Assembly: GCA_009920495.1 (NCBI GenBank)
Contig: RFZW01000004.1
Location: 1 to 50,970 of the forward strand
Source: Chitinophagia bacterium
Lineage (GTDB): Bacteria; Bacteroidota; Bacteroidia; Chitinophagales; Chitinophagaceae
Length of the DNA stretch: 50,970 nt
Reading direction: 5' to 3'
The position numbers were made by a program, and so were the translations under genes. This document shows positions 18,308 to 41,716 of the stretch, piece after piece. Numbering within the stretch: the first letter of the stretch is position 1; every line of letters starts with the position of its first letter. The notes beneath the pieces are model-generated. The model saw only the letters and a list, made by a program, of their open reading frames with translations. It ran no database searches and was not told the DNA's origin.

Positions 18308-19381
18308 CTAATCCTTTGGTTCTTTCTTATGCCAGTAGGAAGCAAGGATGGATCCTGTAATGTTCATAAAAGGTCCAAACACCGCAGCTGCCAATCCCAT
18401 GGTTGCAGCTTTTCCTAGCTTTTCTGCAAGTCCTGATGCCAATCCGCCATTTTGCATACCCACTTCAATAGCTACAGTGCGACAGTCTCTTTCAGGCATT
18501 TTAAATAATCGAGCACTCCAATAGCCCAATAAATAGCCAAATGTATTATGAATTAAAACTATGATTATTAATAATGGTCCAATTTTTAATAAATTATCAC
18601 GGCCAGAAGCAGTAATAATAGTAATAATACAAGCGATACCTATCATGGAAACAATAGGCATGGCATCATCCAGCCATTTTGATTTTCCTTTTAATAATTT
18701 ATTGAAAATTAAACCAGCGCCAATTGGGATGATGATCATTTTATTAATGTCCCACATCATTTTTAAAACATCAATTTCTACCAATGCGCCTGCAAATAAT
18801 TTCATTAATAAAGGAGTAACAAAAGGAGCCAATAATGTAGTGATTGAAGTAATTGTAATGGATAGTGCCAAGTTTGCTTTTGCTAAATAGGACATTACGT
18901 TTGAAGCCAGACCACTAGGGGAGCAACCGATCAATATAATTCCAGCAGCTATTTCGGGAGGGAAATTAGATAAGCTTGCTAAAGTAAAACCTAAAGTAGG
19001 CATTATAGCAAATTGACTTACCACCCCTATAATTACACCTTTTGGTGTTTTAACTACTGCGGCAAAATCATTCATACTCATACAAGTTCCCATGCCAAAC
19101 ATGATGATTTGAATTAATGGTACAATGAGTCCGCCTAATTTAAATCCTCCCCATACTCTAAAATATTCAGGGTGAAACATAGACAATGATACTGCTGAAA
19201 ATATAATCATCGTAAAACTTAATCCTTGCAAATTTTCAGTTGATTTAACCCCCAGGCTTAAAGATAAAAATGCCAGGGATAATACGAGTCCTAAAAAATC
19301 AGTCACATGCATTAAATACAAAACGCCTGCGAGGGCAAATAGTCCTAAAGATAAATAGAGGAATGGTTTGTAATTTTTCAT
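18308..19381 (-). CDS. Bile acid:sodium symporter family protein
   Basis: Multi-TM; FGMGTCMSMNDFAAVVKTPKGVIIGVVSQFAIMPTLGF, GCSPSGLASNVMSYLAKAN. Confidence 0.9.
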   Translation of the reverse strand: MKNYKPFLYLSLGLFALAGVLYLMHVTDFLGLVLSLAFLSLSLGVKSTENLQGLSFTMIIFSAVSLSMFHPEYFRVWGGFKLGGLIVPLIQIIMFGMGTCMSMNDFAAVVKTPKGVIIGVVSQFAIMPTLGFTLASLSNFPPEIAAGIILIGCSPSGLASNVMSYLAKANLALSITITSITTLLAPFVTPLLMKLFAGALVEIDVLKMMWDINKMIIIPIGAGLIFNKLLKGKSKWLDDAMPIVSMIGIACIITIITASGRDNLLKIGPLLIIIVLIHNTFGYLLGYWSARLFKMPERDCRTVAIEVGMQNGGLASGLAEKLGKAATMGLAAAVFGPFMNITGSILASYWHKKEPKD

Positions 19382-19404
19382 TATATATTTTTAATTAATT
19401 TAAC

Positions 19405-20322
19405 TTACCAGGTTCTTTTTTCTAGAAACTTTTCAAGCGCTTCTTTGGTAATAATGGGTTCGTTAGGGTGGGCGCTTATCCAATTTAAAAAGGAAGTTTT
19501 AATTTCTTCTGTCCATTGGTTGTCAATTTGACCTGCATTGTATTTGCCTGATTTTAAAACGTCTTTCGAAAAACGATCACGTACCGAAATGAATTCTGAA
19601 GTAGCGACTACTTTTTCAGCCATATGCGCAGGTATAAATAATACGCCTTCTCGTTCAGATAATACCAAATCCCCAGGCATAACTATGGCACCACCAATTC
19701 TAATGGGCCCATTGAGTCCAATTAGAACTACTTCTTCTAAAAATGAGGGATGAAAGTCACGTACATAGGCGTTAAATCCTTTTAGTTGCGACAATCCTGA
19801 TAAATCACGCGCAGCACCGTCAAAAATAACGCCATTGCCAGTTTTATTAAAGATAGATGCCCCTAAATTGTCACCTATTAATGTGCCTTGTGCTATTTTG
19901 CCAAATGCTTCAGCAACATAAACATCTCCTTTTTGTAAAATTTGAATTGGCCAAGCATTCGTATTGCCAGTTCGGCCTTCTTTTTTACCACGTTCTTTGA
20001 TAAGTGCTTCTATATCCGGACGGGTAGGACTGTACTTTGCAGTTACTGCCCTGCCTACTACTGGAACATCATCATGTACCATTTTCCAATTTCCTTCAAA
20101 CTGATTATTGTAACCTTCGTTATGAAGTACTTGCCAGGCTTCTTCGATACCTATTTTTTTTGCTCTAGCAATTAATTCATCACTTATTTTAGGGCGACCA
20201 TCTTCAAATCTTTCCCCCTTCCAATTAGAGGTTAAATATTCTAATTCAGTTTTAGGAAATAATTGTGCTTGGGTAAAATAAAACGAACCTGTCAATAATA
20301 ATAGTATTCCTATTTTTTTCAT
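19405..20322 (-). CDS. RraA-family protein (HMG/KHG aldolase-like fold) with signal peptide
   Basis: MKKIGILLLLTGSFYFTQAQ signal; GDNLGASIFNKTGNGVIFDGAARDL RraA motif. Track start is 20349; the Met at 20322 fits the signal peptide. Confidence 0.88.
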   Translation of the reverse strand: MKKIGILLLLTGSFYFTQAQLFPKTELEYLTSNWKGERFEDGRPKISDELIARAKKIGIEEAWQVLHNEGYNNQFEGNWKMVHDDVPVVGRAVTAKYSPTRPDIEALIKERGKKEGRTGNTNAWPIQILQKGDVYVAEAFGKIAQGTLIGDNLGASIFNKTGNGVIFDGAARDLSGLSQLKGFNAYVRDFHPSFLEEVVLIGLNGPIRIGGAIVMPGDLVLSEREGVLFIPAHMAEKVVATSEFISVRDRFSKDVLKSGKYNAGQIDNQWTEEIKTSFLNWISAHPNEPIITKEALEKFLEKRTW

Positions 20323-20335
20323 AATTCCTTTTAAT

Positions 20336-21565
20336 TTATTTAGTCGCACTTTGTAAAACTTCTTTTAATCTTTTAGCTACAATTTTATCTTCTCCTTCTT
20401 GTAATGACCATGCAGTCATGCCAATATTATCTTTGCCACCCACTGATTCAATGGAAGGATTTCCGTTACGTAAATCCAAACGTAATTGTTCCCCAGTTTT
20501 ACTGATTTTACTATAATCCAATATAATATTTAAAGTTGGCGTAACATTACCTAAGGTTGGTGTTGAAATTGTTGTAGTTACCCCAGGAACTGATTCTGCA
20601 GCTGCTTGAATTTTTTTAATTCTTTCTAAAAATATAAGTGCTTCTGCATCATGGTCAATTTTTACAAATTCTTCCACGGCAACAAGCATGCCTAATATTT
20701 CTTCCTTGTTTACTTTCATACCACGACCAATGGTTTCCCCACGCGGAGGCATGGATAAACGGGCTGCCTTGATTAAATCTTTTTTACCCATTAATAAGCC
20801 AGCACTTTGAGGTCCTCTTAATGCTTTACCACCTGAGATGGCAACAAAATCAAAGCCCATTTCATTAAAGCGCCAAAGGTTACTCACTGGAGGTACATCC
20901 GCAGCAATATCAATCGTAGTTGGTATGCCATATTTTTTTCCAATCGCTACCCATTCTTCATGTTGTATTTGTCCTTTGTCAGATTGCACATGTAAAAAGT
21001 GCATAGCTGCTGTATTTTTATTGATGGCATTTTTTAATTCTTCCAAAGTTTCCACCATAACAATTTTTACACCCGTGTTGGTTAAAGCTTGATTATAACC
21101 AATGGCATGTGATTTTTGACAAATCACTTCCGTTTTCATACCTGTACCTTCTAATTTAGGAAGTGCTTTTACTTTAACTGGATCTAAGCCAGTTAATATT
21201 CCAGCCATGCCTAAAGTTAATGCGGAAAACGCACCACTTGTAACTACAACTGCCTCAGCCCTGGTAATTGCTGCTAATCTTTCACCCACTTTATCTTGTA
21301 AATCATCTAGCATACAAAATTTATGAGAAGCTTGTCTGATGGCCTCCACGGTTGCAGGGCGCATTAGTGATGCGGTCATTGCTGTATAAGTACCAGCAGC
21401 GTTTATAAATGTTCGAACGCCTAATTCCGCGAATAAATCACGCTTCATGGCTGCTGCTAATGGGGTAGCCATTGGTGCCGCATTAGCAGTTGAAAATCCA
21501 CCTACAATCGATGCACCAGCAAGTGGCGTGATTGATATATATTTTAACAGGTCTCTGCGTTTCAT
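20336..21565 (-). CDS. SelA-like PLP-dependent enzyme (D-glucosaminate-type ammonia-lyase family), paralogue 1, Tat-like signal
   Basis: MKRRDLLKYISITPLAGASIVGGFSTANA; VAISGGKALRGPQSAGLLMG PLP-lysine motif. Confidence 0.88.
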   Translation of the reverse strand: MKRRDLLKYISITPLAGASIVGGFSTANAAPMATPLAAAMKRDLFAELGVRTFINAAGTYTAMTASLMRPATVEAIRQASHKFCMLDDLQDKVGERLAAITRAEAVVVTSGAFSALTLGMAGILTGLDPVKVKALPKLEGTGMKTEVICQKSHAIGYNQALTNTGVKIVMVETLEELKNAINKNTAAMHFLHVQSDKGQIQHEEWVAIGKKYGIPTTIDIAADVPPVSNLWRFNEMGFDFVAISGGKALRGPQSAGLLMGKKDLIKAARLSMPPRGETIGRGMKVNKEEILGMLVAVEEFVKIDHDAEALIFLERIKKIQAAAESVPGVTTTISTPTLGNVTPTLNIILDYSKISKTGEQLRLDLRNGNPSIESVGGKDNIGMTAWSLQEGEDKIVAKRLKEVLQSATK

Positions 21566-21585
21566 AATATTTATTTAAAATTTTA

Positions 21586-22059
21586 TTAATTAGCAATTGC
21601 AATACAGTCCATTTCAACCAATGAGTTTCCTGGAACACCACCATAAGTTGCAACAGTTGTTCTTACTGGTGGATTTGGTCCAAAGCGCCCTTTAAATACT
21701 TCGTTCATTTGTTTGTAATCACCCAGGTCAGCTAAGTATACATTTACTTTTAAAACTTTTTCCATGGAGGAACCCGCTTTAATCAACTCTTTTTCTAATT
21801 CTTTTAAAACATGATCCGTATGGGCTTTAATATCTCCTTCAAAGTGTGCCCCTTTACCTGCAACAAAAACCATTCCTGCAAATTTGGTAGCACCAGAAAA
21901 AAGTGGAATGTCCTGTTCTAATTGAACATTAAACACTTCTTTTCCATTTGCATCCACACTTGAATTTGGTGTTGCATTTGCAGCAACAGTAGCACCTGTG
22001 ATACCTAAGAATCCAGCAAACATTTTTTTAAAAATTGAGCGGCGGTTTTGAGTTTTCAT
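21586..22059 (-). CDS. RidA (YjgF/YER057c/UK114) family protein, exported
   Basis: MKTQNRRSIFKKMFAGFLGITGATVAANA signal; C-terminal NPPVRTTVATYGGVPGNSLVEMDCIAIAN. Track start is 22101. Confidence 0.88.
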   Translation of the reverse strand: MKTQNRRSIFKKMFAGFLGITGATVAANATPNSSVDANGKEVFNVQLEQDIPLFSGATKFAGMVFVAGKGAHFEGDIKAHTDHVLKELEKELIKAGSSMEKVLKVNVYLADLGDYKQMNEVFKGRFGPNPPVRTTVATYGGVPGNSLVEMDCIAIAN

Positions 22060-22084
22060 TTTTTTTAATTTTATATTTTTAATT

Positions 22085-23650
22085 TTATTTAAGTTCCACA
22101 ATCATTTCAATTTCAACAGAAATATTATTAGGGAGTGCAGCAACACCTAATGCTGAGCGTGCGTGCTTTCCTCTTTCTCCAAAAACTTCCACCATTAAAT
22201 TGGAAAATCCATTCATCACAGCAGGCTGTTGTACAAATGTGGGATCAGAATTTACCAATCCAAGTACTTTCACAATACGCTTTACTTTATTTAAATCACC
22301 GATATAGGATTTTAAAGTAGACAACATAGATATCCCTGTAAGTCTTGCAGCTGCAGCACCTTCTTCAACAGTGACATCTTTTCCTAAATGGCCATACATT
22401 TGTCCACCACCTGGCTTATCAGGACCATGACCGGATAGGTATACTAATTTGCCTACTTGAACTTGTTTCAAATAATTGGCAATCGGTGGAACAACGGGGA
22501 TTAAAGTGATATTTGATTTTTTTATTCTTTCTTCAGGATTTACTTCCATAGGTTCATTTGAAAATACCAAACAAACAGGTGCATTTATTTTCATATCCTG
22601 ATTGGTGTTGGTTAATTTTCCAGTAGCATCATCAAATGAAAATATTTGCACCTTATCGTCATTTTGACTTGCAACAAAAACAAAATTTCCCAATGGTGTA
22701 AAACTAAAATTTCTAGGTTTTTCTGCAACAGGTTGATGATACATTTTTGTAAGTAATCCGTTTTCGCCAATTTTAAAAATGGTTAGTTCGTTACTTGTCA
22801 CTCTATTAGTTGAAATAAGCCATTTGCCACTAGGGGAAATGTGAATATCACCACTACCTTTTGAAGCTTTGGTGCTAGATGTATCTGCAATAATGCTTTG
22901 TACTTTATTAAACTTATTTTGATCTATTGCAAAAACATCCACTGTGCCTGACATTTCACTAATCAAATAGCCATGTTTGCCAGTGGCATCAAAAACAAAA
23001 TGTCTTGGACCATTCCCTGGCGTGATAGGAATGGCGGTATAGTTTTCGTCCACTAATCCATCAGCGTATATTTTATGTTGATAAATTTTATCACCTCCTA
23101 AGTCAGTCACTAATAAATAGGTGTGATCCAAACTTAATACAACATTATGTGCGTGTGAGGCTTCTTGTCTTGCTTTATCAATACTTGAGCCATTGTATTT
23201 AATTTCTTGTGCAATTGGAAGTAATGCACCGTCATCACTTGTTTTGAAAACACTCAAGCTTCCCGAAGTATAATTTGCTGTGTACACTGTTTTACTTTCG
23301 GAACGATAAGTAATAAAACAGGGACCAGCACCTTTAATGGCTGAGTTGTTAATTTTTTCAAATTCATTATTACTATTTAGCTTATATGAATTTACAGAGG
23401 AGGCATCTTTTGATCCTTCAGAAACAGCATACATTAATTTACCTTCATTTGCTAAAGTTAAATAGGAGGCGTTTGCGTTTTCTTTGGTATACAACAAACT
23501 TGGTTTTCCTGTTACTGCATTTACGGAATATACTTCAATTCCTGGATTTCCTTTTTTTGTATAGGAACCAACCACCAATTGATACTGATTGGTATCGGCA
23601 GGCGAAAAGTTTAGTAAGTTGGTAACTAATAGTGTGGCAATAAAATTCAT
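22085..23650 (-). CDS. Fusion: lactonase-family beta-propeller (PGL-like) + C-terminal RidA domain, with signal peptide
   Basis: N-term YQLVVGSYTKKGNPGIEVYSVN..., GPRHFVFDATGKHGYLISE lactonase repeats; C-term LVYLSGHGPDK...GKHARSALGVAALPNNISVEIEMIVELK RidA. Confidence 0.88.
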   Translation of the reverse strand: MNFIATLLVTNLLNFSPADTNQYQLVVGSYTKKGNPGIEVYSVNAVTGKPSLLYTKENANASYLTLANEGKLMYAVSEGSKDASSVNSYKLNSNNEFEKINNSAIKGAGPCFITYRSESKTVYTANYTSGSLSVFKTSDDGALLPIAQEIKYNGSSIDKARQEASHAHNVVLSLDHTYLLVTDLGGDKIYQHKIYADGLVDENYTAIPITPGNGPRHFVFDATGKHGYLISEMSGTVDVFAIDQNKFNKVQSIIADTSSTKASKGSGDIHISPSGKWLISTNRVTSNELTIFKIGENGLLTKMYHQPVAEKPRNFSFTPLGNFVFVASQNDDKVQIFSFDDATGKLTNTNQDMKINAPVCLVFSNEPMEVNPEERIKKSNITLIPVVPPIANYLKQVQVGKLVYLSGHGPDKPGGGQMYGHLGKDVTVEEGAAAARLTGISMLSTLKSYIGDLNKVKRIVKVLGLVNSDPTFVQQPAVMNGFSNLMVEVFGERGKHARSALGVAALPNNISVEIEMIVELK

Positions 23651-23899: not shown

Positions 23900-25153
23900 A
23901 TGAAAAAACAGTATGCACTATTATTAGGTTTGCTTGTATTTAGCATTGGTATATTCGCCCAAAATGCAAGTCCTATCTATGATGTATTAGTTAAGGGCGG
24001 ACATGTTATTGATGCAAAAAATGGCATCGATGGTGTCATGGATATAGCCATTAAGCAAGGTAAAATATTTAAAGTTGACAAAAATTTAAACGCGAAAGAT
24101 GCTAAACAAGTAGTGGATGCTGCTGGTTTAATAGTGGCACCTGGCTTAATTGATTTGCATGCGCATGTATTTGCGGGCACACAACCTGATCATTACTTAA
24201 GTGATGGCTTAAGTGCTTTAATGCCTGATGGTTATACATTTAGAGTAGGTGTGACTACGGTGGTGGATTGTGGCGGTGCAGGTTGGAAAAACTTCGCCAC
24301 TTTCAAGAAAAATGTAATTGACATATCGCAAACAAGAGTGTTGTCTTTTTTAAATATTGTTGGTGAAGGAATGCGTGGTGGAAATTACGAACAGGATTTG
24401 GCGGAGATGAATGCTAAATTTGCTGCAAGTGCTGCTAAACAATACAGCGATTATATAGTAGGTTTTAAACTAGCCCATTTTAATGGAGAAGATTGGACCC
24501 CAACGGATAGAGTCGTGGAAGCTGGAAAATTAGCAGGACTTCCTGTAATTATTGATTTTGGTGGGTCTAAACCTAATTTACCTATCCAGGATTTATTTTT
24601 TAAACATTTACGACCAGGTGATATTTATACCCATACTTATGCTGCGCTAGGGGGTGCTCGTGAAGAGATTGTAGATGAGAAAAATAACCTAAAACTATTT
24701 GTATTAGAGGCGCAAAAAAGAGGAATTATTTTTGATGTGGGTTATGGTGGTGCAAGTTTTAATTATTCGCAAGCGATTCCAGCTTTGAAGGCTGGATTAT
24801 ATCCAAACACGATAAGTACTGACCTTCATACGGGTAGCATGAACACTTCTATGAAGGATCAATTAAGTGTCATGTCAAAATTTTTGAATATGGGTATGTC
24901 ATTAGTGGAAGTTATCAAAGCCAGTACTTGGAAACCTGCACAGGTAATTAACCGTCCATTATTAGGTAATTTATCTGAAGGTTCCGAAGCGGATATTGCC
25001 ATCTTTAATGTCAGAAAAGGCAACTTTGGATTTTATGATAAAACCGGTTACAAAGTAAAGGGGACTGAAAAATTAGAATGCGAGGTTACTATCAAGGGAG
25101 GCAAAGTATTGTATGATTTAAACGGACTTGCAAACCCTATTTATGTAAAATAA
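23900..25153 (+). CDS. COG3964-type amidohydrolase/deacetylase, copy 1, with signal peptide
   Basis: MKKQYALLLGLLVFSIGIFAQ signal; LIDLHAHVFAGTQPDH (HxH), VGFKLAHF, STDLHTGSMN. Track start at 23804; the Met at 23900 fits the signal peptide. Confidence 0.88.
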   Translation: MKKQYALLLGLLVFSIGIFAQNASPIYDVLVKGGHVIDAKNGIDGVMDIAIKQGKIFKVDKNLNAKDAKQVVDAAGLIVAPGLIDLHAHVFAGTQPDHYLSDGLSALMPDGYTFRVGVTTVVDCGGAGWKNFATFKKNVIDISQTRVLSFLNIVGEGMRGGNYEQDLAEMNAKFAASAAKQYSDYIVGFKLAHFNGEDWTPTDRVVEAGKLAGLPVIIDFGGSKPNLPIQDLFFKHLRPGDIYTHTYAALGGAREEIVDEKNNLKLFVLEAQKRGIIFDVGYGGASFNYSQAIPALKAGLYPNTISTDLHTGSMNTSMKDQLSVMSKFLNMGMSLVEVIKASTWKPAQVINRPLLGNLSEGSEADIAIFNVRKGNFGFYDKTGYKVKGTEKLECEVTIKGGKVLYDLNGLANPIYVK

Positions 25154-25154
25154 A

Positions 25155-26915
25155 TTATTTCTTATCACTCAGCACCTGAAGTTGCATTTGTTTCATCTTG
25201 ATTAATCTTAATCTTTGACGAACAATTGCAACTTCTGTTTTTGTAACAGAGTCGGAATGGTTATCAAAGCTGCGTCTTATATAGCTTAATATACTTGCAA
25301 TATCCTGATCAGGTAGTTGTGAAAATTTGGGCATCATACCAACAAAGGGCTCGCCGTTAATTTTTATAGGTCCTTCCAATCCTTTTAATAATACTGAAAT
25401 AAGGGTATCCTTATTGCCATTCACCCAGTCAGATGCAGCAATAGAAGGAAATCTGGTTCCATCGCCTTTTCCATTTTTTTGATGACACATCAAACAATTC
25501 ATTTGATATAGTTTTTCTCCACCAATAGCTACTTTGTTACGCTCTAAATTATCTAAAACGATATCTGGATTTTTAACATAAGTTCTGTTTTCTCTTTCTT
25601 TCATTTTTGCCAAACTCTTTTCTGTGAACTCTTCTTTTTTACCGTTGAATTTCACTTTCCAAATTTTTCCTTTTTCCGATTCTGAAATATATAAGGAGCC
25701 ATCTGGTCCTTGTGCTAATCCCATGGGACGATATTTTGAATCGCTTGTATTTACTAAAGTATCTCTTCCAGTAAATCCATCTGCAAACACTTCCCACTTT
25801 TGTGGTTTTCCATTAACAAAAGGAACGAATGCTATAATATATCCAGCTTGCGGATACGGCGCACGAATAGTTGATCCATGAAATGCGACAAATGCGCCAT
25901 TTTTATACCTTGCAGGGAATTGATCTCCAGTATAAAATAATAAATCATTGGGTGCAAAATGTCCAGGGAAACCAACAATCGGCGTTTCAATGGTGGTATC
26001 TGTATTTTCAATTTCACCATTACCACCATATTCAGGATTCAACATTACTTTTCCTTTCATTTGATCAAAGTAATAATAAGGCCAACCTGCATTTGCCCCT
26101 GGTTTTAATTTATAAAAAGCTTCAGAAGGTAATAAGGCACTTTGCCATGCATTATAGTATTGCGGCCAATTATTTACAAGTCCATCTCGGCCATGGCCCA
26201 CGCAATACAATGAATTATCTTGTGTATTCCAAGTCATTGCCACCAAGCTTCTTAAACCTGTTGCCACTTTTACACCATCAATAGTTCTGAATTGATTTAA
26301 TTTATTTTCATCAAACATCCACACGCCTGCGTTAGAATCTAAAATTGGGCAAGGGTTCATTCCTGGTGAACCAGGTAATCTGTTTTCCACTTGACAAGCA
26401 TCAGAAGGAGCACCAAAGGGAACAAAAATATGCCCCTTACCATCAAAGGCCAATGGTTTTCCATCATGTTCTCTTCTGCGACCGCTATCAATAACGATGT
26501 ATTCAGGTTCCCCCATGGGAACCATTGACTTAGCATCAAGTTTGTATCTGTATACCAACATTTCCGAACTCGTATATAAATAGCCGTTGTGAATACGCAT
26601 ACTAGTTGCATAAGCGCCTTCTCTAATTTTTGGACCAAAATTTTTAATGATGTCAGCGCGACCATCTTTGTTCTCATCCCTTAAAACAAAATTCATTCCG
26701 CCTTCCACAAATCGATTTCCTTTCACATAGATATCCCCATTGTCGTTCACTGCTAAGTGTCGCGCTCTGCCAGGTAAGCTATCAACTACAACGACTGCCT
26801 CAAAGCCATCTGGTAAAATTAATCCGCCATTTTTTTCACTAAAAAAATTACTACAACTCGTTAAAAATAAACAAATTGCGAAAATAAATAATTGGGGTAA
26901 AGTTTTAAGCTGCAT
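25155..26915 (-). CDS. PQQ-dependent sugar dehydrogenase-like propeller fused to cytochrome c; lipoprotein signal
   Basis: LFLTSCSN lipobox; PDGFEAVVVVDSLPGRARHLAV..., CVGHGRDGL; C-term CLMCHQKNGKGDG heme site. Confidence 0.86.
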   Translation of the reverse strand: MQLKTLPQLFIFAICLFLTSCSNFFSEKNGGLILPDGFEAVVVVDSLPGRARHLAVNDNGDIYVKGNRFVEGGMNFVLRDENKDGRADIIKNFGPKIREGAYATSMRIHNGYLYTSSEMLVYRYKLDAKSMVPMGEPEYIVIDSGRRREHDGKPLAFDGKGHIFVPFGAPSDACQVENRLPGSPGMNPCPILDSNAGVWMFDENKLNQFRTIDGVKVATGLRSLVAMTWNTQDNSLYCVGHGRDGLVNNWPQYYNAWQSALLPSEAFYKLKPGANAGWPYYYFDQMKGKVMLNPEYGGNGEIENTDTTIETPIVGFPGHFAPNDLLFYTGDQFPARYKNGAFVAFHGSTIRAPYPQAGYIIAFVPFVNGKPQKWEVFADGFTGRDTLVNTSDSKYRPMGLAQGPDGSLYISESEKGKIWKVKFNGKKEEFTEKSLAKMKERENRTYVKNPDIVLDNLERNKVAIGGEKLYQMNCLMCHQKNGKGDGTRFPSIAASDWVNGNKDTLISVLLKGLEGPIKINGEPFVGMMPKFSQLPDQDIASILSYIRRSFDNHSDSVTKTEVAIVRQRLRLIKMKQMQLQVLSDKK

Positions 26916-27074: not shown

Positions 27075-27608
27075 ATGACTATAAACATTAATCATATTGA
27101 TGTTGAATTATTGAATCGTTTGCGAGAAAATGACACGCAAGCATTTGAAAGTATATATAAAAAATACTGGCAAAACCTTTACCTGACAGCCTTTTCCATA
27201 TTAAAAGACAAACAAACTGCGGAGGATATTATACAAGATTTATTTATACAGTTATGGAATAAACGGGCAACAATTTCAGTGACTGTTTCTCTTAATGCAT
27301 ATTTATCCACTTGTATAAAACATGAAGTTTTTAGAATCATCCGAAAACGAATAGCTGAATTAGATACCAATGAAGTTATTCAGCCAGATAAAACCTATAA
27401 TGCACAGGAGTTGATTGAATACAAGGAGTTTCTTGCACATACACAACAGCTAATTGCAAAATTATCAGTTAAGTGTCAGGAGGTTTTTGTTTTAAGTAGG
27501 GAGGATCAATATTCCCATAAAGAAATTGCAGCCCAGCTCAATATTTCTTCAAAAACCGTTGAGAATCATATCGGTAAGGCGCTCGGCCTACTAAAAAATA
27601 GCCTGTAA
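27075..27608 (+). CDS. RNA polymerase ECF sigma factor (FecI-like, Bacteroidetes family)
   Basis: FESIYKKYWQNLYLTAFSILKD...AEDIIQDLFIQLW; sigma4 YSHKEIAAQLNISSKTVENHIGKAL. Confidence 0.95.
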   Translation: MTININHIDVELLNRLRENDTQAFESIYKKYWQNLYLTAFSILKDKQTAEDIIQDLFIQLWNKRATISVTVSLNAYLSTCIKHEVFRIIRKRIAELDTNEVIQPDKTYNAQELIEYKEFLAHTQQLIAKLSVKCQEVFVLSREDQYSHKEIAAQLNISSKTVENHIGKALGLLKNSL

Positions 27609-27688
27609 AATATTTTTTTAATTTTATCCCATCTCGACTAGGGGATAAGACCCTTTTTTTACTCTTATAGGGGAGAAAAAACTATATT

Positions 27689-28882: not shown

Positions 28883-28900
28883 AAATATAAATTTCAAAAA

Positions 28901-32497: not shown

Positions 32498-32516
32498 CTC
32501 AATTAAATTTAAGAAT

Positions 32517-34066
32517 ATGAAAAAGATACTTCCTGTAAAAAAGGAAGTTTAACTGACATCAATATAAATCCTGATGCAATTACATATATAGTCCCAGACT
32601 ATACTTTTACTGCTGCTGCACTCGCAAGTGTTCCTGGACAAAATTACCGTGCACTTGGTCAAGGGTTGCAATATTTTTCAACCTATAAGGAAGTACCCGC
32701 AGTAGGTGATAAATTTTACAACTTCAATGGTACTGCTGGAACATTTGCTATTTATAATAATCAATGGAATAGATTGGTACAATTAAAAGCCAAATTAACT
32801 TCAGCGGATGATGTGAATAAAAAAGCAGCATGTGAAATTTTAAGAATTTTGGCTTTTCACCAACAAACTGATTTGATGGGTGACATGCCTTATTCCGAAG
32901 CAATGAAAGGAATAGATGGATTGAAGCCAAAATATGATACACAAAAATCAATTTATGCTGCAATGCTTTCTGAATTAGAAGCTGCATTAAAATCAATGGA
33001 TCCCTCAAAAGCTAATGTATTTGGCACTGCAGATCCTTATTTTAAAGGGGATGTAACTAAATGGAAAAAATTTGGATACACATTAATGCTTCGTTTGGGT
33101 ATGCGTATGTCAGAAGTAGATGCAGCGACTGCCAAAGCTTGGGTGGAGAAAGCGGCTGCTGGCGGGGTAATGATAGACAATGCGGATATTGCATATATAA
33201 AATTTGCGAATGTTACAGGGCAATTTAATCCAAGAGTAGACGGTATGATTGCAGGTGACTTTACTAGCCCCGGCGGAGATAATGTGGAGGGAAGTAAATG
33301 GTCTGCTAAATTTATTGATCATTTAAAAGCGACAGCTGATCCAAGATTGCCAGTACTATCGGTAGTTTGGGTGCCAACAGGTGGTACATACACTGCTGAT
33401 AACTCAGCAGCAAAACAAAGAGGGATGATCAATGGTAGTATTAATACAAAACCTACGGATTTTGATACTTATTCAGAACCTTCTTTATTGTATATTGACA
33501 GAGGTTCGCCAATAATTACCATGGGACCTGCGGAATCATATTTATTATTATGTGAAGCAGCAGTAAGAGGTTGGACAGTAGGTTTCACAGCTGAAGACGC
33601 ATACAATAAAGCGGTTCGTGCAGCAATGGCGCAATGGGCTTTATGGCCTTCTGTTGCACCTCACTCCGGTGTAATTTCAACAGCTTCTGTAGATGCTTAT
33701 TTGTTAGCAAATCCATTTAAAACAACTGGTACACTTGATCAAAAAATCGAACAAATTGCTACTCAAAAATGGGTTTCTTTGTTAGGTGATGATTATGAAG
33801 TGTATTCAGATTGGAGAAGGGTAAAATATCCAATATTTAATTATGCGAACTGGAAATCAACTTCAGGCGCATTAGTTTCTTATCCTGGAAATGTAACCGC
33901 AGGAAAAATGTGGAGAAGGTTCTCGCTTCCTTTGGATGAGCGTAATGTAAATACAGCTAATTATAATGAGGCTATTAAAAGACAAAGTTTTTCTGAAGAA
34001 ACCGTTGACTTATTGCAGGGCAGAATGTGGTGGGACGTAGGTCCAAAAACAGGACAACAAAATTAG
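32517..34066 (+). pseudogene. SusD/RagB-family lipoprotein lacking an in-frame start/signal peptide core
   Basis: ATGAAAAAGATACTT (MKKIL) then frame switch; SCKKGSLTDININPDAITYIVPDYTF... open from 32531 in another frame through the SusD body to 34066. Confidence 0.85.
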
Positions 34067-34165: not shown

Positions 34166-35374
34166 ATGAAAAGGAGAGACTTATTAAAATACGCAAGTAT
34201 GTTGCCTATTGGTACAGGTGTTGCTGCAGGCTTGATTCCAACTAAAGCATTCGCGAAAGCCCCGGCTGCTAAAAGAGATATATTAAAAGAGTTGGGGATT
34301 AGAACATTTGTAAATGCTGCGGGTACTTATACCGCGATGACTGCATCATTAATGCATGATGAAGTAGTAGAAACAATTAAGCAAGGCGCAAAGCAATTTG
34401 CCATGTTAGACGAGGTACAAGATAAGGTGGGTGAAAAAATTGCCGAATTATGTCATGCAGAAGCAGCAACAGTTACTGCAGGATGTTGGAGTGCATTGGT
34501 GTTAGGAACCGCAGGCGTATTAACAGGAATGGATATGAAAAAAGTGGCACAACTACCTGATGTAAAAGGAATGAAAGCCGAAGTGATTGTGCAAAAAGGG
34601 CATAACATTGGCTATGTTCATGCATTAACAAACACAGGTGCTATCATTGTTGAAATTGAAACAGTGCAAGAGTTGGAAAAAGCAATCAATGAAAAAACGG
34701 CCATGATGTGGTTTTTGAATTCATACGCGCCCATGGGAAAAATTCAACATGAAGAATGGGTGTCGATTGCTAAAAAACATAAAATTCCAACGATGATTGA
34801 TATGGCTGCAGATGTGCCACCAGTATCAAATTTATGGAAGTACAATGACCTTGGATTCGATTTAGTATGTGTGTCGGGTGGAAAAGCAATGCGTGGTCCT
34901 CAAAGTGCAGGAATATTAATGGGTAAAAAAGAATTGATTGCTGCAGCTAGATTAAGCGCGCCTCCGCGTGGTGGAAATATTGGTAGAGGAATGAAAGTAA
35001 ATAAGGAGGAAGTATTGGGCATGTATGTGGCGCTTGAAAAGTACATTAATCAAGACCACGATGCAGAATGGAAGATGTGGGAATCGAAAATTGATACCAT
35101 TGCCAAATCTGTTGACTCAATTGAAGGCGTAAAAATTGAAATTTCGGTTCCACCTATTGCCAATCATACGCCACTTTTATTTATAAGCTGGGATGAGTCT
35201 AAAGTAAAAACAAGTAATAAGGACTTAATGTTAAAATTAAGAAATGGAAGTCCTTCCATTGAGGTTATGGCAAATGGCACAGGTATAAACATTACCGTGT
35301 TTATGTTACAAGATGGAGAGGAGAAAATTGTAGCAAAGCGCGTAAGGGAAGAATTATTATTAGCAAAAGCTTAA
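34166..35374 (+). CDS. SelA-like PLP-dependent enzyme, paralogue 2, Tat-like signal
   Basis: MKRRDLLKYASMLPIGTGVAAGLIPTKAFA; VCVSGGKAMRGPQSAGILMGKK. Confidence 0.88.
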   Translation: MKRRDLLKYASMLPIGTGVAAGLIPTKAFAKAPAAKRDILKELGIRTFVNAAGTYTAMTASLMHDEVVETIKQGAKQFAMLDEVQDKVGEKIAELCHAEAATVTAGCWSALVLGTAGVLTGMDMKKVAQLPDVKGMKAEVIVQKGHNIGYVHALTNTGAIIVEIETVQELEKAINEKTAMMWFLNSYAPMGKIQHEEWVSIAKKHKIPTMIDMAADVPPVSNLWKYNDLGFDLVCVSGGKAMRGPQSAGILMGKKELIAAARLSAPPRGGNIGRGMKVNKEEVLGMYVALEKYINQDHDAEWKMWESKIDTIAKSVDSIEGVKIEISVPPIANHTPLLFISWDESKVKTSNKDLMLKLRNGSPSIEVMANGTGINITVFMLQDGEEKIVAKRVREELLLAKA

Positions 35375-35391: not shown

Positions 35392-36536
35392 ATGAAAAAA
35401 ATAGTTATATCGGTTTTATGTATGGTCGCATTTTTATTTAATACAAGTGCGCAATCGTATAGTATTGTTATAAAAGGAGGATTGGTGATTGATCCAAAAA
35501 ATGGCGTTAATGAAATTATGGATATTGCCATTCAGGATGGTAAAATTGCAAGTGTTGCAAAAAATATAAATGCTACAGGTGCAGCACAAGTGGTAAATGC
35601 AAAAGGTTTAATTGTTTCTCCAGGTTTGATTGACATTCATGGTCACGTTTTTGCAGGGACACAGCCTGATCATTATTTAAGTGATGGAAATAGTGCATTA
35701 ATGCCAGATGGATATACATTTAGGGTAGGAGTTACCACGATTGTTGATTGTGGTGGTGCTGGTTGGAAAAACTTTTCAGTTTTCAAAAAAAATGTAATTG
35801 ATGTATCTCAAACAAGGGTGCTATCTTTTTTAAATATTGTAGGTGAGGGCATGCGCGGCGGAGCGTATGAGCAAGATGCAAGAGATATGGATCCTAAAAT
35901 GGCAGCTTATGTTGCTAAACAAAATAAAAAAGATATTGTAGGACACATGCGCCTTTATCCATACAGGAATTATTTTTTAAGCATTTAAGACCAGGGGATA
36001 TTTATACGCATGCATTTACAGAATTACAAAGAAGAGATCCAATTGTTGATTTTAAAACGCGTCAATTGAAGCCTTTTATAAAAGAGGCGCAAGCAAGAGG
36101 TATTGTATTTGATGTCGGTTTTGGCGGTGCAAGTTTTGCATTTGATCAAGCATTGCCTGCAATTAAAGCTGGGTTTTATCCAAATACAATTAGTACTGAT
36201 TTACATACGGGAAGTATGAATAATGCAATGAAGGATATGCTAAATGTGATGTCTATATTTATGACCATGGGTATGGATGTGCCTGCGATCATTAAGGCAA
36301 GCACATGGGTGCCTGCACAATCAATTAAAAGAGAAGAGTTAGGAAATTTATCTGTGGGTTCGGTTGCTGATGTAGCTATCCTAGGAATTCGTGAAGGAAA
36401 TTTTGGATTTTTTGATCGTATTGGACATAAAGAAACAGGAACAAAGAAATTTGAATGTCAGGCAACCATTAGAAATGGTAAAATGGTGTATGATTTAAAT
36501 GGTATTACTACACCCATTTTATTGCTGGCTAAATAA
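35392..36536 (+). pseudogene. COG3964-type amidohydrolase, copy 2, disrupted (ORFs 35392-35988 and about 35943-36536 in different frames)
   Basis: Collinear with copy 1; ...KKDIVG then missing segment; THAPLSIQELFFKHLRPGDIYTHAF resumes in a new frame at 35943. Confidence 0.88.
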
Positions 36537-36589: not shown

Positions 36590-37597
36590 ATGCAAGCAGA
36601 ATATATTTTATGTTGTGATTGGGGCACCACTAGCTTTCGATTAAGGTTAACTAATTTGAAGGCTGATGTGATTGCCGATACCCATTCAGAAAAAGGAATA
36701 TTGGTTCACCACAATCATTGGCTAAGTCAAAAGGACGATAATCCGGAGCGCCGCTTTGATTATTATTTGCAATACATTCAAAGTCAAATTGGAGAAATTC
36801 GCCATAACCTTGACATCGATATTGCAACATTACCATTGGTAATTTCAGGTATGGCCATCTCCTCCATTGGGATGATGAATATGCCCTATGAAAATTTACC
36901 TTGTTCTGTAGCGGCGACCACTGGTTTTGAATGGAGACTTCAACAAAATGGTGCGCCAATAATATTAGTTACAGGTGTTTGTAGTTCGGATGATTTAATG
37001 CGTGGCGAGGAAACACAGATTATAGGTTTGTATCATACCCCTGAATTAAATAATGTGCTCCCCAACAGTGGGATATTTGTGCTACCTGGCACACATTCAA
37101 AACATGTAAGTATCAATGATAAAGCGATAATTTCAATTAAGACATTTATTACTGGCGAATTATTTCATATACTAAGGAGTAATGGTACTTTAGCTAAATC
37201 TATTGAGTTTAATCACGAGGATAGGAATATAAATCCAGAAAATCAATTAGCATTTATAAAGGGGATTCATGAATCAAAAAATGGGTCCTTGTTAAATAAT
37301 TTATTTCAGGTAAGGGTCAATGACATTTTAAATAAACTGAATAAGGAGCAAAACTTTTATTATTTAAGTGGCTTATTGATAGGTAGTGAATTTGATTATT
37401 TGAAAAAGGAGCCTATCTTATCACCGACAAATAAATTAGTTGTCTGTTGCAGTCAAAGCTTCATTTCCTATTATACAACCGTATTAAAAGAATTAGAGCT
37501 ACTTGATTACGTAATTTTTATTCCTCCAGCATTATTTGATAAAGCAACAGTAGTAGGACAAATAACCGTTTATAAAAAATATATTCAATCAGTATAA
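36590..37597 (+). CDS. dgoK: 2-dehydro-3-deoxygalactonokinase (DgoK family)
   Basis: CDWGTTSFRLRL, VISGMAISSIGM, GVCSSDDLMRGEETQIIGL, LPGTHSKH. Confidence 0.9.
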   Translation: MQAEYILCCDWGTTSFRLRLTNLKADVIADTHSEKGILVHHNHWLSQKDDNPERRFDYYLQYIQSQIGEIRHNLDIDIATLPLVISGMAISSIGMMNMPYENLPCSVAATTGFEWRLQQNGAPIILVTGVCSSDDLMRGEETQIIGLYHTPELNNVLPNSGIFVLPGTHSKHVSINDKAIISIKTFITGELFHILRSNGTLAKSIEFNHEDRNINPENQLAFIKGIHESKNGSLLNNLFQVRVNDILNKLNKEQNFYYLSGLLIGSEFDYLKKEPILSPTNKLVVCCSQSFISYYTTVLKELELLDYVIFIPPALFDKATVVGQITVYKKYIQSV

Positions 37598-37599: not shown

Positions 37600-38244
37600 A
37601 TGCATCGGCCAATATTTTCATGGGACTTATTTAATAAAATGCCAGTAGTCGGTATAATTAGAGGCCTAAGTGTGGATGAAATTAATTTTGTTCTACCTAT
37701 TTATAAGGCTGCAGGATTTACCACTATTGAAATTACACTCAATACGCCAGAAGCATTATCGGTCATAGGTTCATTGGCAAATCAATATAATGGGGAGCTA
37801 AATGTAGGTGCAGGGACTGTTTGTACACTTGATGACTTAGCAGCTGCGATAACTGCGGGTGCAAATTTTATTGTAACACCAATATTTAAAGCGGAAGTGG
37901 TTAAAAAATGTGTTGCAATGCAAGTGCCCATATTTCCTGGCGCATTTACTCCAACTGAAATTTATGAAGCTTGGGAATTGGGGGCGTCAATGGTTAAATT
38001 ATATCCAGCCTCAGTGGTTGGACCAGCGTATGTTTCAGCAGTATTGGCGCCCTTAAATAAAATAAAACTAATGCCAACCGGCGGGATACATTTGAGTAAT
38101 ATGTTGGCTTTTATGAAAGCAGGGGCAACTTCCTTGGGAATTGGTTCGGAATTATTTGATAAAAAGATTATTCAAAAGAGAGATAGTGAAGCCATGTTGA
38201 ATCACTTTAAATTATTTGCACAACAAATGCAATTATCTAAGTAA
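37600..38244 (+). CDS. eda: Bifunctional 4-hydroxy-2-oxoglutarate/KDPG-type aldolase
   Basis: MPVVGIIRGL, TTIEITLNTPEAL, GAGTVCTLDDL, FPGAFTPTEI, KLYPAS, MPTGGI. Confidence 0.93.
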   Translation: MHRPIFSWDLFNKMPVVGIIRGLSVDEINFVLPIYKAAGFTTIEITLNTPEALSVIGSLANQYNGELNVGAGTVCTLDDLAAAITAGANFIVTPIFKAEVVKKCVAMQVPIFPGAFTPTEIYEAWELGASMVKLYPASVVGPAYVSAVLAPLNKIKLMPTGGIHLSNMLAFMKAGATSLGIGSELFDKKIIQKRDSEAMLNHFKLFAQQMQLSK

Positions 38245-38256
38245 TCAGTTTTGATA

Positions 38257-39522
38257 ATGAAAAAAATTAAAAACTATCGTTGGATCATTATCGTATTATT
38301 ATTTACGGCAACCTGTATTAATTATTTAGATCGACAAATTATAGGGTTATTAAAACCAATTTTAGAAAAAGAATTTAATTGGACCGAAATGGATTTTTCA
38401 CATATTGTGATGGCTTTTACCGCAGCTTATGCTGTTGGGTTATTAATTGCAGGAGGCGTGATTGATAAAGTGGGGACTAAAATTGGATATACGTTTACAG
38501 TAATTATTTGGAGTACGGCAGCAATGTTTCATGCACTTGCAAAGTCAGTTGTTGGTTTTAGTGTTGCACGCGTATTCCTAGGTATCGGTGAAGCGGGGCA
38601 CTTTCCAGCCGCTGTAAAAACAGTAGCTGAATGGTTTCCTAAAAAAGAGCGTGGTTTGGCGACCGGAATTTTTAATGCAGGTACGAGTGTGGGTGTAGTT
38701 TTTGCATTATTCATCACACCTTATATATATGCAAACTATGGTTGGCAGGCAGTGTTTTGGATTACTGGTGCCTTAGGATTTATATGGTTAATTGCTTGGT
38801 TGTATTTTTATGAAATTCCGGCAAAACAAAAAAGGCTTACTGAATCTGAGCTAGCTTATATTGAGTCAGATCAACAAAATGAATCCATTACTAAAGTAGA
38901 TATCCCTTGGCGTAAACTATTCTCCTATAAACAAACCTGGGCTTATGTCACAGGTAAATTTTTAATAGATCCAATTTATTGGTTTTTTCTATTTTGGTTG
39001 CCTTCCTATTTTGCAACCACATTTCATATTGATTTAAAAAAACCAAGTATTGAGTTGATGATAATTTATGCCTCTACCACCATCGGAAGTGTCATGGGGG
39101 GTTATTTATCATCCCATTTAATAAAAAAGGGTTGGCGTGTTTTAAATGCAAGACAAACTGCTTTATTCATTTTTGCAATTATTGAGTTGTCGGTAATACT
39201 TGCGCAATTTGTCACAAATGTTTGGGTCGCTGTAGCTTTAATCAGTTTGGTGATTGCGGTGCATCAGGCTTGGGCCACTAATATTTTTACGATGGCCTCT
39301 GACATGTTCCCTAAAGAATCGGTTAGCTCGGTGGTAGGCATTGGCGGTATGGCCGGCGCAATCGGAGGTATATTATTCCCAATACTAGTGGGGTACTTAT
39401 TAGATACTTATAAAGCTTTAGGAAATATTACTATTGGATATAATATATTGTTTACCATATGTGGGTGTATGTATTTGATTGCTTTTGCAATCATTCGTTT
39501 ATTAATTCGTAAATTACCATAA
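38257..39522 (+). CDS. MFS transporter, hexuronate/aldonate (ExuT-like) type
   Basis: CINYLDRQIIGLLKP, GIGEAGHFPAAVKTVAEWFPKKERGLATGIFNAGTSVG. Confidence 0.9.
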   Translation: MKKIKNYRWIIIVLLFTATCINYLDRQIIGLLKPILEKEFNWTEMDFSHIVMAFTAAYAVGLLIAGGVIDKVGTKIGYTFTVIIWSTAAMFHALAKSVVGFSVARVFLGIGEAGHFPAAVKTVAEWFPKKERGLATGIFNAGTSVGVVFALFITPYIYANYGWQAVFWITGALGFIWLIAWLYFYEIPAKQKRLTESELAYIESDQQNESITKVDIPWRKLFSYKQTWAYVTGKFLIDPIYWFFLFWLPSYFATTFHIDLKKPSIELMIIYASTTIGSVMGGYLSSHLIKKGWRVLNARQTALFIFAIIELSVILAQFVTNVWVAVALISLVIAVHQAWATNIFTMASDMFPKESVSSVVGIGGMAGAIGGILFPILVGYLLDTYKALGNITIGYNILFTICGCMYLIAFAIIRLLIRKLP

Positions 39523-39568
39523 GCATTTTAAAAACTTTAAATATTAAATTAATCCTAAATCCGATACT

Positions 39569-41176
39569 ATGAAAAGACGAAATCTTATAAAAAGTTTATC
39601 GCTGCTGCCATTTACGGCGGCACTGCCTTCGCAGTTATTTGGTAAATCCGAAGCAAACGTTTCTGCAGTAGAAACTGGAGAAAATATTTTCAGATCATTA
39701 GGCGTAGAGCCCTTAATTAATTGTAGGGGAACATTCACTATTATTGGTGGATCCATTGAACGACCCGAAGTTCGCGCAGCAATGGAAGCCGCGGCGCATA
39801 ACTTTGTGCAGTATGATGAATTAAGTGATGCGGTACATGCAAAAATAGCAGAAGTTACGCAAGCAGAGTGGGCCTTGGTTTCAGCGGGTTGTGCAGCGGG
39901 CATGAAACATGTCACGGCGGCATGTGTTACAGGAGGTAATCCTGAAAAATTAATTTGCATTCCAAATTTAACCGGCTTCGATAAAACGGAAGTGATTATA
40001 CCTACTAGCTCAAGAAACGTATACGATCATTCCATACGCAACATTGGCGTAACAATTATTGAAGTTGCTACACCTGAGGAATTGGTAAAAGCAGTGAATA
40101 AAAAAACCGCCATGATTTATATAATGGCAGATGATCCTGCAGATAATGATGCGCCATTATCTTTAGTAAATATTGTTCGCTTAACTAAGGCGCAAAATAT
40201 ACCTATTTTGGTGGATGCCGCTGCTGAAGTATTAACCATACCTAATATACATTTACAAAGAGGGGCACACATGGTTGCTTATAGTGGTGGTAAAGCGATA
40301 TGCGGACCACAATGTGCTGGATTTGTGATTGGTCAAAAGGACATATTGATGTCAGCATGGCAATCTAGTGCACCACATCATGGTCCATGTCGTGATAATA
40401 AGGTAGGTCGTGAGGAAATGTTAGGGATGCTAGCTGCTGTGCAAGCATGGACAACAAGAGATCACAAACAAGAATGGAAAACATGGTTGTCCTGGTTAGA
40501 TTTGATTTCGAAAAGGGTCACTAAAATTTCAGGAATCAGTACTTCCGTATTTGAGCCCGTTGCTTATTCGAATCGTTCACCCGTTTTAAGAATTACATGG
40601 GATCCCAATAAATTTAATATTACAGGGGAGGAGGTTGCAGAGGAATTTGGCCGAAACAAGCCGCGTATTGCAGTGGGAGGTATGAGTAAGGATAATGTTA
40701 CCGGTATTTCCATTACCACAGGTCAAATGCAGCCAGGGGAGGCCGAACAAGTAGCAGAACGTGTTTATAATTTTATGTCTCAAACAAGAACGGCAAAAAG
40801 CAATGATTTAAAAGCGCCAGCTGTAATAGTGACAGGTACTTGGAAATTTGATATACAATTTTTTAGTAGTAAATCGGCCCATCAAATTACATTAACACAG
40901 GATGGGAATTGGTTGCAAGGAAGTCACAAGGGCGAGTTTTCGACACGCGAGTGTGTTGGTACTATTGAGGGTAATGAGATAAAGTTAAAAAGTCAAGAGC
41001 GTCAGGCCGCTGATAATATTACCTTTATTTTTTCAGGAACAGTAACTGGTGAAACCATGTCTGGTAATATACATATGGGTGAATATAGGACTGCTACATT
41101 TACTGCGACAAGGACACAAAGTAAACGCCCTAGACAAAAAATATTTGTTCCACAAGGGCCACCATTAGCTACTTAA
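39569..41176 (+). CDS. SelA-like PLP-dependent enzyme, paralogue 3, with extra C-terminal beta-rich domain and Tat-like signal
   Basis: MKRRNLIKSLSLLPFTAALPSQLFGKSEA; VAYSGGKAICGPQCAGF; C-term VTGTWKFDIQF...SGTVTGETMSGNIHMGEYRTATFTATR. Confidence 0.86.
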   Translation: MKRRNLIKSLSLLPFTAALPSQLFGKSEANVSAVETGENIFRSLGVEPLINCRGTFTIIGGSIERPEVRAAMEAAAHNFVQYDELSDAVHAKIAEVTQAEWALVSAGCAAGMKHVTAACVTGGNPEKLICIPNLTGFDKTEVIIPTSSRNVYDHSIRNIGVTIIEVATPEELVKAVNKKTAMIYIMADDPADNDAPLSLVNIVRLTKAQNIPILVDAAAEVLTIPNIHLQRGAHMVAYSGGKAICGPQCAGFVIGQKDILMSAWQSSAPHHGPCRDNKVGREEMLGMLAAVQAWTTRDHKQEWKTWLSWLDLISKRVTKISGISTSVFEPVAYSNRSPVLRITWDPNKFNITGEEVAEEFGRNKPRIAVGGMSKDNVTGISITTGQMQPGEAEQVAERVYNFMSQTRTAKSNDLKAPAVIVTGTWKFDIQFFSSKSAHQITLTQDGNWLQGSHKGEFSTRECVGTIEGNEIKLKSQERQAADNITFIFSGTVTGETMSGNIHMGEYRTATFTATRTQSKRPRQKIFVPQGPPLAT

Positions 41177-41278
41177 TAACATAATGATACATATAAATAG
41201 GGTGCAGTTTTTGTGCCCTATTTTATTTGTAATTCTTTTAATTTTTATTAACTTTCCAATTCAATTAAAATCAGCATA

Positions 41279-41716
41279 ATGAAATTTATCAAATTTACTT
41301 TCGCAATATTATTGACCCTTATTGTATTTGGTGCACAAGCACAAGAAAAAAAAGAACAAAAACTAAATGAAACTTTGGAGCAGTTTCGATTAACGCTGAT
41401 TGATCCTAATGAATCCACTTTTTATGCATTAACATCACCCAAGTTGTCTTATGGACATTCTGGGGGTGCTGTTGAAGATCAAAAAACTTTCATCGCAAAT
41501 ATGGTGAATGGAAAGAGTGATTTTGTAACCATTAATATTGCAGATCAAACGGTTGAGGTCGAAGGAAATATAGGTTATGTGCGTCACACATTTAATGCAG
41601 TCACTTCTACGGATCCTAAAATAGCACCCATTAAATTAAAAATATTTTATGTTTGGGTTTTTGAAGCAGGTGCTTGGAAATTAAGAGCGCGTCAAGCAGT
41701 TAAAATTCTGATTTAA
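41279..41716 (+). CDS. NTF2-like (DUF4440-type) secreted protein
   Basis: Signal peptide; DPNESTFYALTSPKLSYGHSGG..., GYVRHTFNA..., WKLRARQAVK. Confidence 0.75.
   Translation: MKFIKFTFAILLTLIVFGAQAQEKKEQKLNETLEQFRLTLIDPNESTFYALTSPKLSYGHSGGAVEDQKTFIANMVNGKSDFVTINIADQTVEVEGNIGYVRHTFNAVTSTDPKIAPIKLKIFYVWVFEAGAWKLRARQAVKILI

Follow-up and report, generated by a model that had tools for sequence, protein, structure and literature searches.

Why should a bacterium encode, side by side, exported lyases dependent on pyridoxal 5'-phosphate (PLP), an exported amidohydrolase, enamine deaminases and a sugar dehydrogenase? This question is raised by a gene cluster at positions 18308 to 41716 of contig RFZW01000004.1 (Chitinophagia bacterium, assembly GCA_009920495.1), within the stretch of 50,970 nucleotides analysed here, which is referred to as the window. 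An earlier note, made from the DNA letters alone, had read the cluster as a periplasmic oxidative pathway for N-acetylamino sugars. Every gene named there was found in its place and with its family in the Pfam and NCBIfam profile searches used for gene family assignment. In our reading, to which we give a probability of about 0.58, the products of this locus would degrade a 2-acylamino-2-deoxy sugar by oxidation outside the cytoplasm, the most likely substrate being an N-acetylhexosamine. The chemistry proposed earlier is largely supported, while the ending proposed with it is not the conserved one and the substrate is tentative.

Gene neighbourhoods were rebuilt from about 30 genomes (78 named loci), and co-occurrence was counted once per genus, for 20 named genera. 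The core of deacylase, PLP lyase and RidA put forward in the earlier note, i.e. genes for a COG3964 amidohydrolase, a SelA-like protein and RidA, is present together in 20/20 genera, and a sugar dehydrogenase lies in the locus in 15/20. These operons are found again in members of the Chitinophagaceae, the Spirosomataceae, the Sphingobacteriaceae and the Cyclobacteriaceae, and chance co-location of the genes is ruled out by recurrence across the 20 genera. COG3964 genes are often present in two or three copies per locus. The SelA-like protein was found in 17 of 148 genomes in a family-level search and is carried by 25 of 398 genomes at the level of the order. It was not found in any of 14 other members of the window's genus, so that the locus is accessory. 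If our reading is correct, a function would be gained for a conserved, unassigned gene set in several families of soil and freshwater Bacteroidota.

The cluster consists of two divergent gene blocks. The left block runs on the minus strand from the sugar dehydrogenase to a sodium symporter and encloses one COG3964 gene on the opposite strand:

25155-26915, minus strand: lipoprotein, putative AA12-like pyrroloquinoline quinone (PQQ) pyranose dehydrogenase with cytochrome c (PF07995, PF00034; AlphaFold 2 model and Foldseek; PQQ-site residues)
23900-25153, plus strand: exported COG3964 amidohydrolase, reading frame also given from 23804, start Met at 23900, candidate N-deacetylase (NF006689, 1e-130, above cut-off; metal ligands compared with 2OGJ)
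22085-23650, minus strand: exported lactonase (7-bladed propeller) fused to a C-terminal RidA-like domain (PF10282, 1e-87; PF14588, 2e-19)
21586-22101, minus strand: RidA enamine/imine deaminase, exported, with a twin-arginine signal (PF01042; catalytic-type Arg in PVRT)
20336-21565, minus strand: SelA1, SelA-like PLP ammonia-lyase with a predicted twin-arginine translocation (Tat) signal (TIGR01437, 9e-49, below cut-off; DGL structures 7LC0/7LCE; twin Arg)
19405-20349, minus strand: RraA-family protein, putative class II pyruvate aldolase, exported (Sec) (PF03737, 8e-17; alignment with 3NOJ; D-X20-R-D; signal peptide)
18308-19381, minus strand: SBF/BASS-family (PanS-like) sodium symporter, proposed importer of pyruvate or 2-keto acids (PF01758, 1e-40; PanS model, 4e-72, below cut-off)

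The nearest solved structure to SelA1 is that of the ammonia-lyase DGL (7LC0/7LCE, 1e-29). The SelA-like proteins of the window score 131-153 bits against TIGR01437, the cut-off of which is 600, and 110 homologues were aligned with DGL residue by residue. The PLP lysine and the aspartate are kept in 110/110, and the carboxylate-binding Arg226 is Lys or Arg throughout. The His162-His163 loop of DGL is lost: it is two residues shorter, the His163 position is empty in 110/110 and the His162 position is His in 5/110. The phosphate-binding triad Arg301/332/346 is conserved in 0/110. Assignment of these proteins to DgaE/DGL is ruled out by the residues and by the TIGR01437 score. The window clade shares the PLP lysine and the aspartate with DGL, and the same elimination of the 3-hydroxyl from a 2-amino-aldonate is predicted for it; unlike DGL it has neither loop nor triad, carries a Tat signal, and would use RidA in place of internal protonation.

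DGL keeps full activity when His163 is replaced by Ala (H163A), but the enamine then escapes into solution. The authors of that work argued that the histidine is retained because a free enamine would be toxic, and compounds of this type are destroyed by RidA (PMC9529869). From the loss of the arginine triad and of His163, an unphosphorylated substrate and release of free enamine are predicted, which would explain both the constant presence of RidA and the exported chemistry. The catalytic Arg of the RidA PxR motif is kept in 98/98 homologues. By analogy, the exported SelA-like clade looks like a natural H163A with RidA as its partner. If this is true, loss of the proton donor of DGL would be a concrete and testable reason for an obligate RidA partner and for export.

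Export of the lyases, also claimed in the earlier note, draws support from both motif and machinery. SelA1, SelA2, SelA3 and RidA start with twin-arginine signals of the form K/N-RR-x-phi-phi-K. Both arginines are invariant in 14 diverse SelA-like proteins, in which the rest of the leader is variable. The strict motif fits 117/122 SelA homologues (two of the five misses have an ERR start) and 69/98 RidA homologues, where the listed misses carry ERR. TatC is encoded in the source genome and in 29/29 cluster genomes. The presence of motif and Tat machinery supports the SelA-like lyases as predicted Tat substrates. For the other enzymes, an N-terminal hydrophobic segment was found in 84/85 amidohydrolases, 28/28 RraA proteins and 49/50 dehydrogenases, as against 0/28 sigma factors, and the window dehydrogenase has a lipobox. 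No signal was found on the window DgoK or KDPG (2-keto-3-deoxy-6-phosphogluconate) aldolase.

An AlphaFold 2 model of the dehydrogenase (predicted local distance difference test, pLDDT, 84) matched best in Foldseek with the AA12 pyranose dehydrogenase 6I1Q (TM(target) 0.78, E 3.5e-19), a six-bladed propeller fold. The top hits were 6I1Q, 6H7T, 6JT5 and 2G8S, the AA12 enzymes being followed by Asd of E. coli and further sugar dehydrogenases of the soluble type, and the first 14 matches are all PQQ-dependent sugar dehydrogenases of the sGDH, Asd or AA12 type. In a profile alignment His150, Arg222, His319 and His346 of the window protein correspond to His153, Arg220, His330 and His350 of TrAA12, whose described residue roles include His153 as catalytic base, the Arg and two PQQ-binding His (PMC6881810, PMC6881789). 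These four residues are invariant in 23 dehydrogenase homologues; Asx221 of TrAA12, which follows the Arg, is replaced by Ser in the window protein. The window protein shares its fold and its PQQ/catalytic His and Arg with PQQ-dependent pyranose dehydrogenases of family AA12 (TrAA12, CcPDH) and with Asd from bacteria, whereas it has a c-type cytochrome (C- or N-terminal in homologues) and AA12 enzymes have an AA8 heme b. In genomes G086 and G104 the same slot of the cluster holds a canonical PQQ dehydrogenase with eight blades (PF01011), which provides independent support for PQQ-type sugar oxidation. Thus the PQQ-type oxidation put forward earlier is supported by a modelled AA12-like fold, by PQQ-site residues and by slot replacement, and the protein is probably an AA12-like, PQQ-type sugar dehydrogenase with a presumed amino-sugar substrate. 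The G086 gene (L062:12770-15076, with a match in G104) encodes this eight-bladed enzyme, a PQQ glucose dehydrogenase in which a cytochrome domain is embedded, and is adjoined by a gene for a DUF4380 protein. The lactonase step agrees with the neighbourhoods as well, the slot being taken by SGL or PF10282 in many loci.

COG3964 enzymes are generalist ester and amide hydrolases (e.g., Atu3266). The genes of the relatives Atu3266 (2OGJ) and EF0837 (2ICS) adjoin SelA-like and KDPG-aldolase genes. The window protein at 23900-25153 scores 435 bits against NF006689 (cut-off 371), and its binuclear metal ligands HxH, Lys, His and STDxH are in register with 2OGJ. Family and ligands make it a candidate N-deacetylase. 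It shares family and neighbourhood logic with Atu3266 and EF0837; unlike these, the COG3964 enzymes of the cluster are exported, are often encoded in more than one copy, and have RidA, RraA and a sugar dehydrogenase for neighbours. In one locus (L046:13079-14878, genome G137) the amidohydrolase is fused to a YhcH/YiaL (DUF386) domain, and a similar fusion is found in G464.

How, then, would the pathway end? The window carries two endings, RraA with SBF in the left block, and a major facilitator superfamily (MFS) transporter with DgoK and KDPG aldolase in the right block, all of which is on the plus strand:

27075-27608, plus strand: extracytoplasmic function (ECF) sigma factor (TIGR02985, above cut-off)
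27689-28882, plus strand: FecR anti-sigma factor (PF04773, PF16344)
28901-32497, plus strand: SusC-type TonB-dependent outer-membrane transporter (TIGR04056, 2e-174)
32666-34066, plus strand: SusD-like_2 lipoprotein, its signal peptide lost by an upstream frame break (PF12771, 1.5e-69)
34166-35374, plus strand: SelA2, second SelA-like PLP lyase with a predicted Tat signal (TIGR01437, 1e-55)
35392-36536, plus strand: second COG3964 amidohydrolase, broken into pieces 35392-35988 and 36066-36536 (family profile; comparison with locus L072)
36590-37597, plus strand: DgoK-type 2-keto-3-deoxy sugar-acid kinase, cytoplasmic, a local addition (PF05035, 7e-52)
37600-38244, plus strand: KDPG/KDPGal aldolase, cytoplasmic, a local addition (TIGR01182, 3e-51, above cut-off)
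38257-39522, plus strand: DgoT-like MFS sugar-acid transporter (PF07690; TIGR00893, 3e-74)
39569-41176, plus strand: SelA3, third SelA-like protein with a predicted Tat signal, with an extra all-beta C-terminal domain (TIGR01437, 3.5e-41)
41279-41716, plus strand: exported DUF4440 (SnoaL-like) protein, accessory (PF14534)

Import followed by DgoK and KDPG aldolase had been taken as the end of the route. As the conserved ending it is ruled out: DgoK and Eda lie in the cluster in 0/20 genera and MFS in 2/20, and outside the window both DgoK and Eda are present only in locus L072, with DgoK alone in L080. RraA and SBF are each found in 9/20 genera and, with DgoK/Eda confined to very close relatives, represent the more widely kept ending. 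The earlier note had claimed that every step of a route was encoded; it omitted the RraA-family protein and the SBF/BASS transporter, both of which are retained in relatives far more often than DgoK, Eda or MFS, and it passed over the sigma, anti-sigma, SusC and SusD block at 27075-34066.

The RraA-family protein aligns with the 4-hydroxy-4-methyl-2-oxoglutarate/4-carboxy-4-hydroxy-2-oxoadipate (HMG/CHA) aldolase 3NOJ across the Arg123-Asp124 site, and the D-X20-R-D motif is present in the window protein and in 32/47 homologues. Most RraA homologues with such a motif are considered class II pyruvate aldolases by the authors of PMC5065237. An enzyme of the RraA family from Flavobacterium uses 2-keto-3-deoxy-D-glucarate as a substrate (PMC8563752), so that a 2-keto-3-deoxy sugar acid is a reasonable substrate for RraA here as well. 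The best-scoring profile for the SBF protein is that of PanS-type transporters. Pyruvate is transported by members of the SBF/BASS superfamily.

The following scheme is proposed. A glycan or free sugar would be brought in by SusC/SusD and oxidised at C1 to the lactone by the lipoprotein PQQ dehydrogenase-cytochrome c, as its fold and PQQ site suggest. The lactone would be opened to the N-acetyl-aminoaldonate by the lactonase, an assignment made by family, and the acetyl group might be removed by the COG3964 amidohydrolase, as family and metal ligands suggest. The SelA-like lyase, devoid of the His163 proton donor, would then yield a free enamine, as the H163A mutant does, and exported RidA would convert the enamine/imine to 2-keto-3-deoxyaldonate and ammonia. 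Exported RraA-family aldolase would cleave this to pyruvate and glyceraldehyde (lactaldehyde in the case of a 6-deoxy sugar), with import of pyruvate by SBF/BASS. As an alternative ending in the window, the intact keto acid would be imported by MFS, and DgoK and the KDPG-type aldolase would finish in the cytoplasm. With elimination and RidA action kept on the outside, the PLP enzymes of the cytoplasm would be protected from the reactive enamine.

A stronger version of this scheme is a complete extracytoplasmic pathway, in which the amino sugar is oxidised, deacetylated, deaminated and cleaved outside and carbon enters as pyruvate, while RidA replaces the lost proton donor, and compartment and partner together contain the toxic enamine. 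This version is tentative, with the odds roughly two to one against it. If it is true, amino-sugar deamination and sugar-acid cleavage can run wholly outside the cytoplasm, the PLP enzymes having passed through Tat in folded form, and a second NagB-independent amino-sugar route would be explained. The order proposed for oxidation and deacetylation is tentative, and the sugar might be N-acetylglucosamine (GlcNAc), N-acetylgalactosamine (GalNAc), a 6-deoxy-amino sugar or another.

An open-access literature search gave no description of this exact cluster, and there is a credible case that a pathway layout with extracytoplasmic steps of this kind is undescribed in searchable papers. The ong pathway of Pseudoalteromonas prydzensis ACAM 620 (OngB, OngC, OngD and KdgK) comprises a deacetylase, a PLP deaminase, RidA and a 2-keto-3-deoxygluconate (KDG) kinase (PMC9537276). 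As proposed for the window, an N-acetyl-aminoaldonate is deacetylated and PLP-deaminated to KDG, RidA is required, and KDG is phosphorylated. OngB and OngC are, however, of the D-aminoacylase and D-amino-acid-deaminase types and cytoplasmic, whereas the window has COG3964 and SelA-like enzymes with export signals and encodes a PQQ oxidase, a lactonase and an exported aldolase within the locus itself. A haloarchaeal cluster of Natrarchaeobius, itself a prediction, places a DGL homologue, RutC and a glucose dehydrogenase beside chitinases, for use of GlcNAc (PMC12343721). It is an independent lineage in which a DGL homologue, a RidA-family gene and a sugar dehydrogenase are grouped as in the window; it differs in being archaeal, in phosphorylation of the aminoaldonate in the predicted route, in its CE14 deacetylase, and in that no export has been proposed. 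The window locus thus resembles the known aminoaldonate route in function and, by the features tested, is a member of none of the characterised systems.

Several observations weigh against the reading preferred here. Signal peptides were scored by motif and hydrophobicity, not by SignalP. In 50/110 SelA-like proteins there is some His near the missing loop, which could take over proton transfer. The dehydrogenase is absent from the locus in 5/20 genera; oxidation is therefore outside the invariant core and may be non-essential. Neither PqqC nor PqqE was found above cut-off in cluster genomes, nor PqqC in 396 Bacteroidota; 27 weak PqqC-like matches elsewhere in the phylum fall far below the cut-off. 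On these grounds PQQ self-supply is unlikely and the carriers would probably depend on scavenged PQQ, the uptake of which has a precedent in E. coli (PMC13088180). The known sugars of AA12 enzymes are L-fucose and glucosone, with L-fucose-like sugars preferred (PMC4332668, PMC6881810), and the AA12 literature examined reports no N-acetyl sugars tested. The D-X20-R-D motif is missing from 15/47 RraA homologues. The amino-sugar genes discussed below (GH20, PIG-L and epimerase) are operonic in few relatives and none is in the window, while GH29/GH95 fucosidases adjoin the cluster in Sediminibacterium metagenome-assembled genomes (MAGs; L070:12101-14605 and neighbours) and GH29 does so in Terrimonas.

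The claim of an amino-sugar substrate stands in part. A GH20 gene lies inside the operon between COG3964 and lactonase in two genera (G058, G063), a PIG-L de-N-acetylase is found in G137 and G464, and a GlcNAc-2-epimerase in G334. These operonic neighbours favour an N-acetylamino sugar, although any assignment to a particular sugar or stereochemistry would be tentative. The logic of the ong pathway (PMC9537276) and the predicted haloarchaeal cluster (PMC12343721) speak for a substrate of this kind as well. A GH20 subfamily co-occurs with the cluster (5/9 carriers among 148 genomes, P=0.001, post hoc and uncorrected for descent). GH20 as a constant partner was rejected, as it is operonic in two genomes only, and because it is mostly standalone elsewhere, it is kept as moderate evidence only.

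The alternative that survives best, although at roughly one chance in six it is unlikely, is an amino-uronic or 6-deoxy amino sugar (FucNAc, QuiNAc, GalNAcA) closed to NagA/NagB, from which RraA would release pyruvate and lactaldehyde or tartronate semialdehyde. A gene of the glucosamine-6-phosphate-isomerase family (PF01182), mostly a strong NagB-like match, is present in 29/29 cluster genomes; ordinary GlcNAc is thus probably already usable, which argues against a simple GlcNAc role. The fucosidases beside some loci make 6-deoxy or other amino sugars possible, and the sugar preference of AA12 enzymes, the glucarate-derived substrate of the Flavobacterium enzyme (PMC8563752) and an RraA ending that needs no C6 phosphate fit such a substrate as well. 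The window DgoK and KDPG aldolase, by contrast, suit a keto acid whose C6 hydroxyl is free, and the GH20 and GlcNAc-2-epimerase neighbours fit plain N-acetylhexosamines.

Slightly less probable still is a substrate that is not a sugar: N-acylated beta-hydroxy-amino acids (e.g., N-acyl-hydroxyamino acids, peptide fragments) would be deacylated by COG3964 and deaminated by the SelA-like protein and RidA, with dehydrogenase and lactonase as side activities. A core without dehydrogenase in a quarter of the genera, the generalist character of COG3964 enzymes, and an M19 dipeptidase and a class-III aminotransferase inside the G063 cluster would be accounted for in this way. However, dehydrogenase and lactonase are present in most loci and are swapped for non-homologous enzymes of the same function, an RraA-type aldolase needs a 4-hydroxy-2-keto acid such as sugar acids give, and DgoK/Eda in the window and SusC/SusD, GH20, GH29 and GH95 neighbours point to sugars. 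That dehydrogenase and lactonase serve only to gain energy by oxidation of a neutral sugar, the SelA/COG3964/RidA/RraA set being unrelated and co-located by chance, would suit the varying number of dehydrogenase copies (1-3 per locus, none in some loci) and the widespread lactonase families, but is improbable given that tight operons, with their genes in one direction and little space between them, recur in several families of the phylum, and given the non-homologous replacement in the same slot.

The source is a 78%-complete draft genome with a GC content of about 36%, which groups with Chitinophagaceae and lies close to freshwater MAGs, part of them labelled Sediminibacterium. Of the syntenic relatives, L072 is the closest and follows the gene order of the window almost throughout. 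L072 has an intact copy of the second COG3964 gene; relative to that copy, one deletion of 109 bp interrupts the gene in the window, and the remainder is 82% identical. SusD has lost its in-frame signal peptide (break region 32498-32666). These two separate small deletions represent either real decay or assembly faults in the draft genome.

The extra C-terminal domain of SelA3 comprises about 120 residues, is mostly beta, and has a near-fixed VPxGPPLAT end (8 homologues). KRR and the GPPLAT end are invariant in the SelA3-type alignment (A4); the AlphaFold model of SelA3 is poor (pLDDT 59). A fourth, partial SelA-like gene is found on a separate contig of the source genome (G000:C53:3673-4017). 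The DUF4440 protein adjoins the cluster in several relatives, as often does an exported CBM9-like protein (17462-18163 in the window; 4/20 genera).

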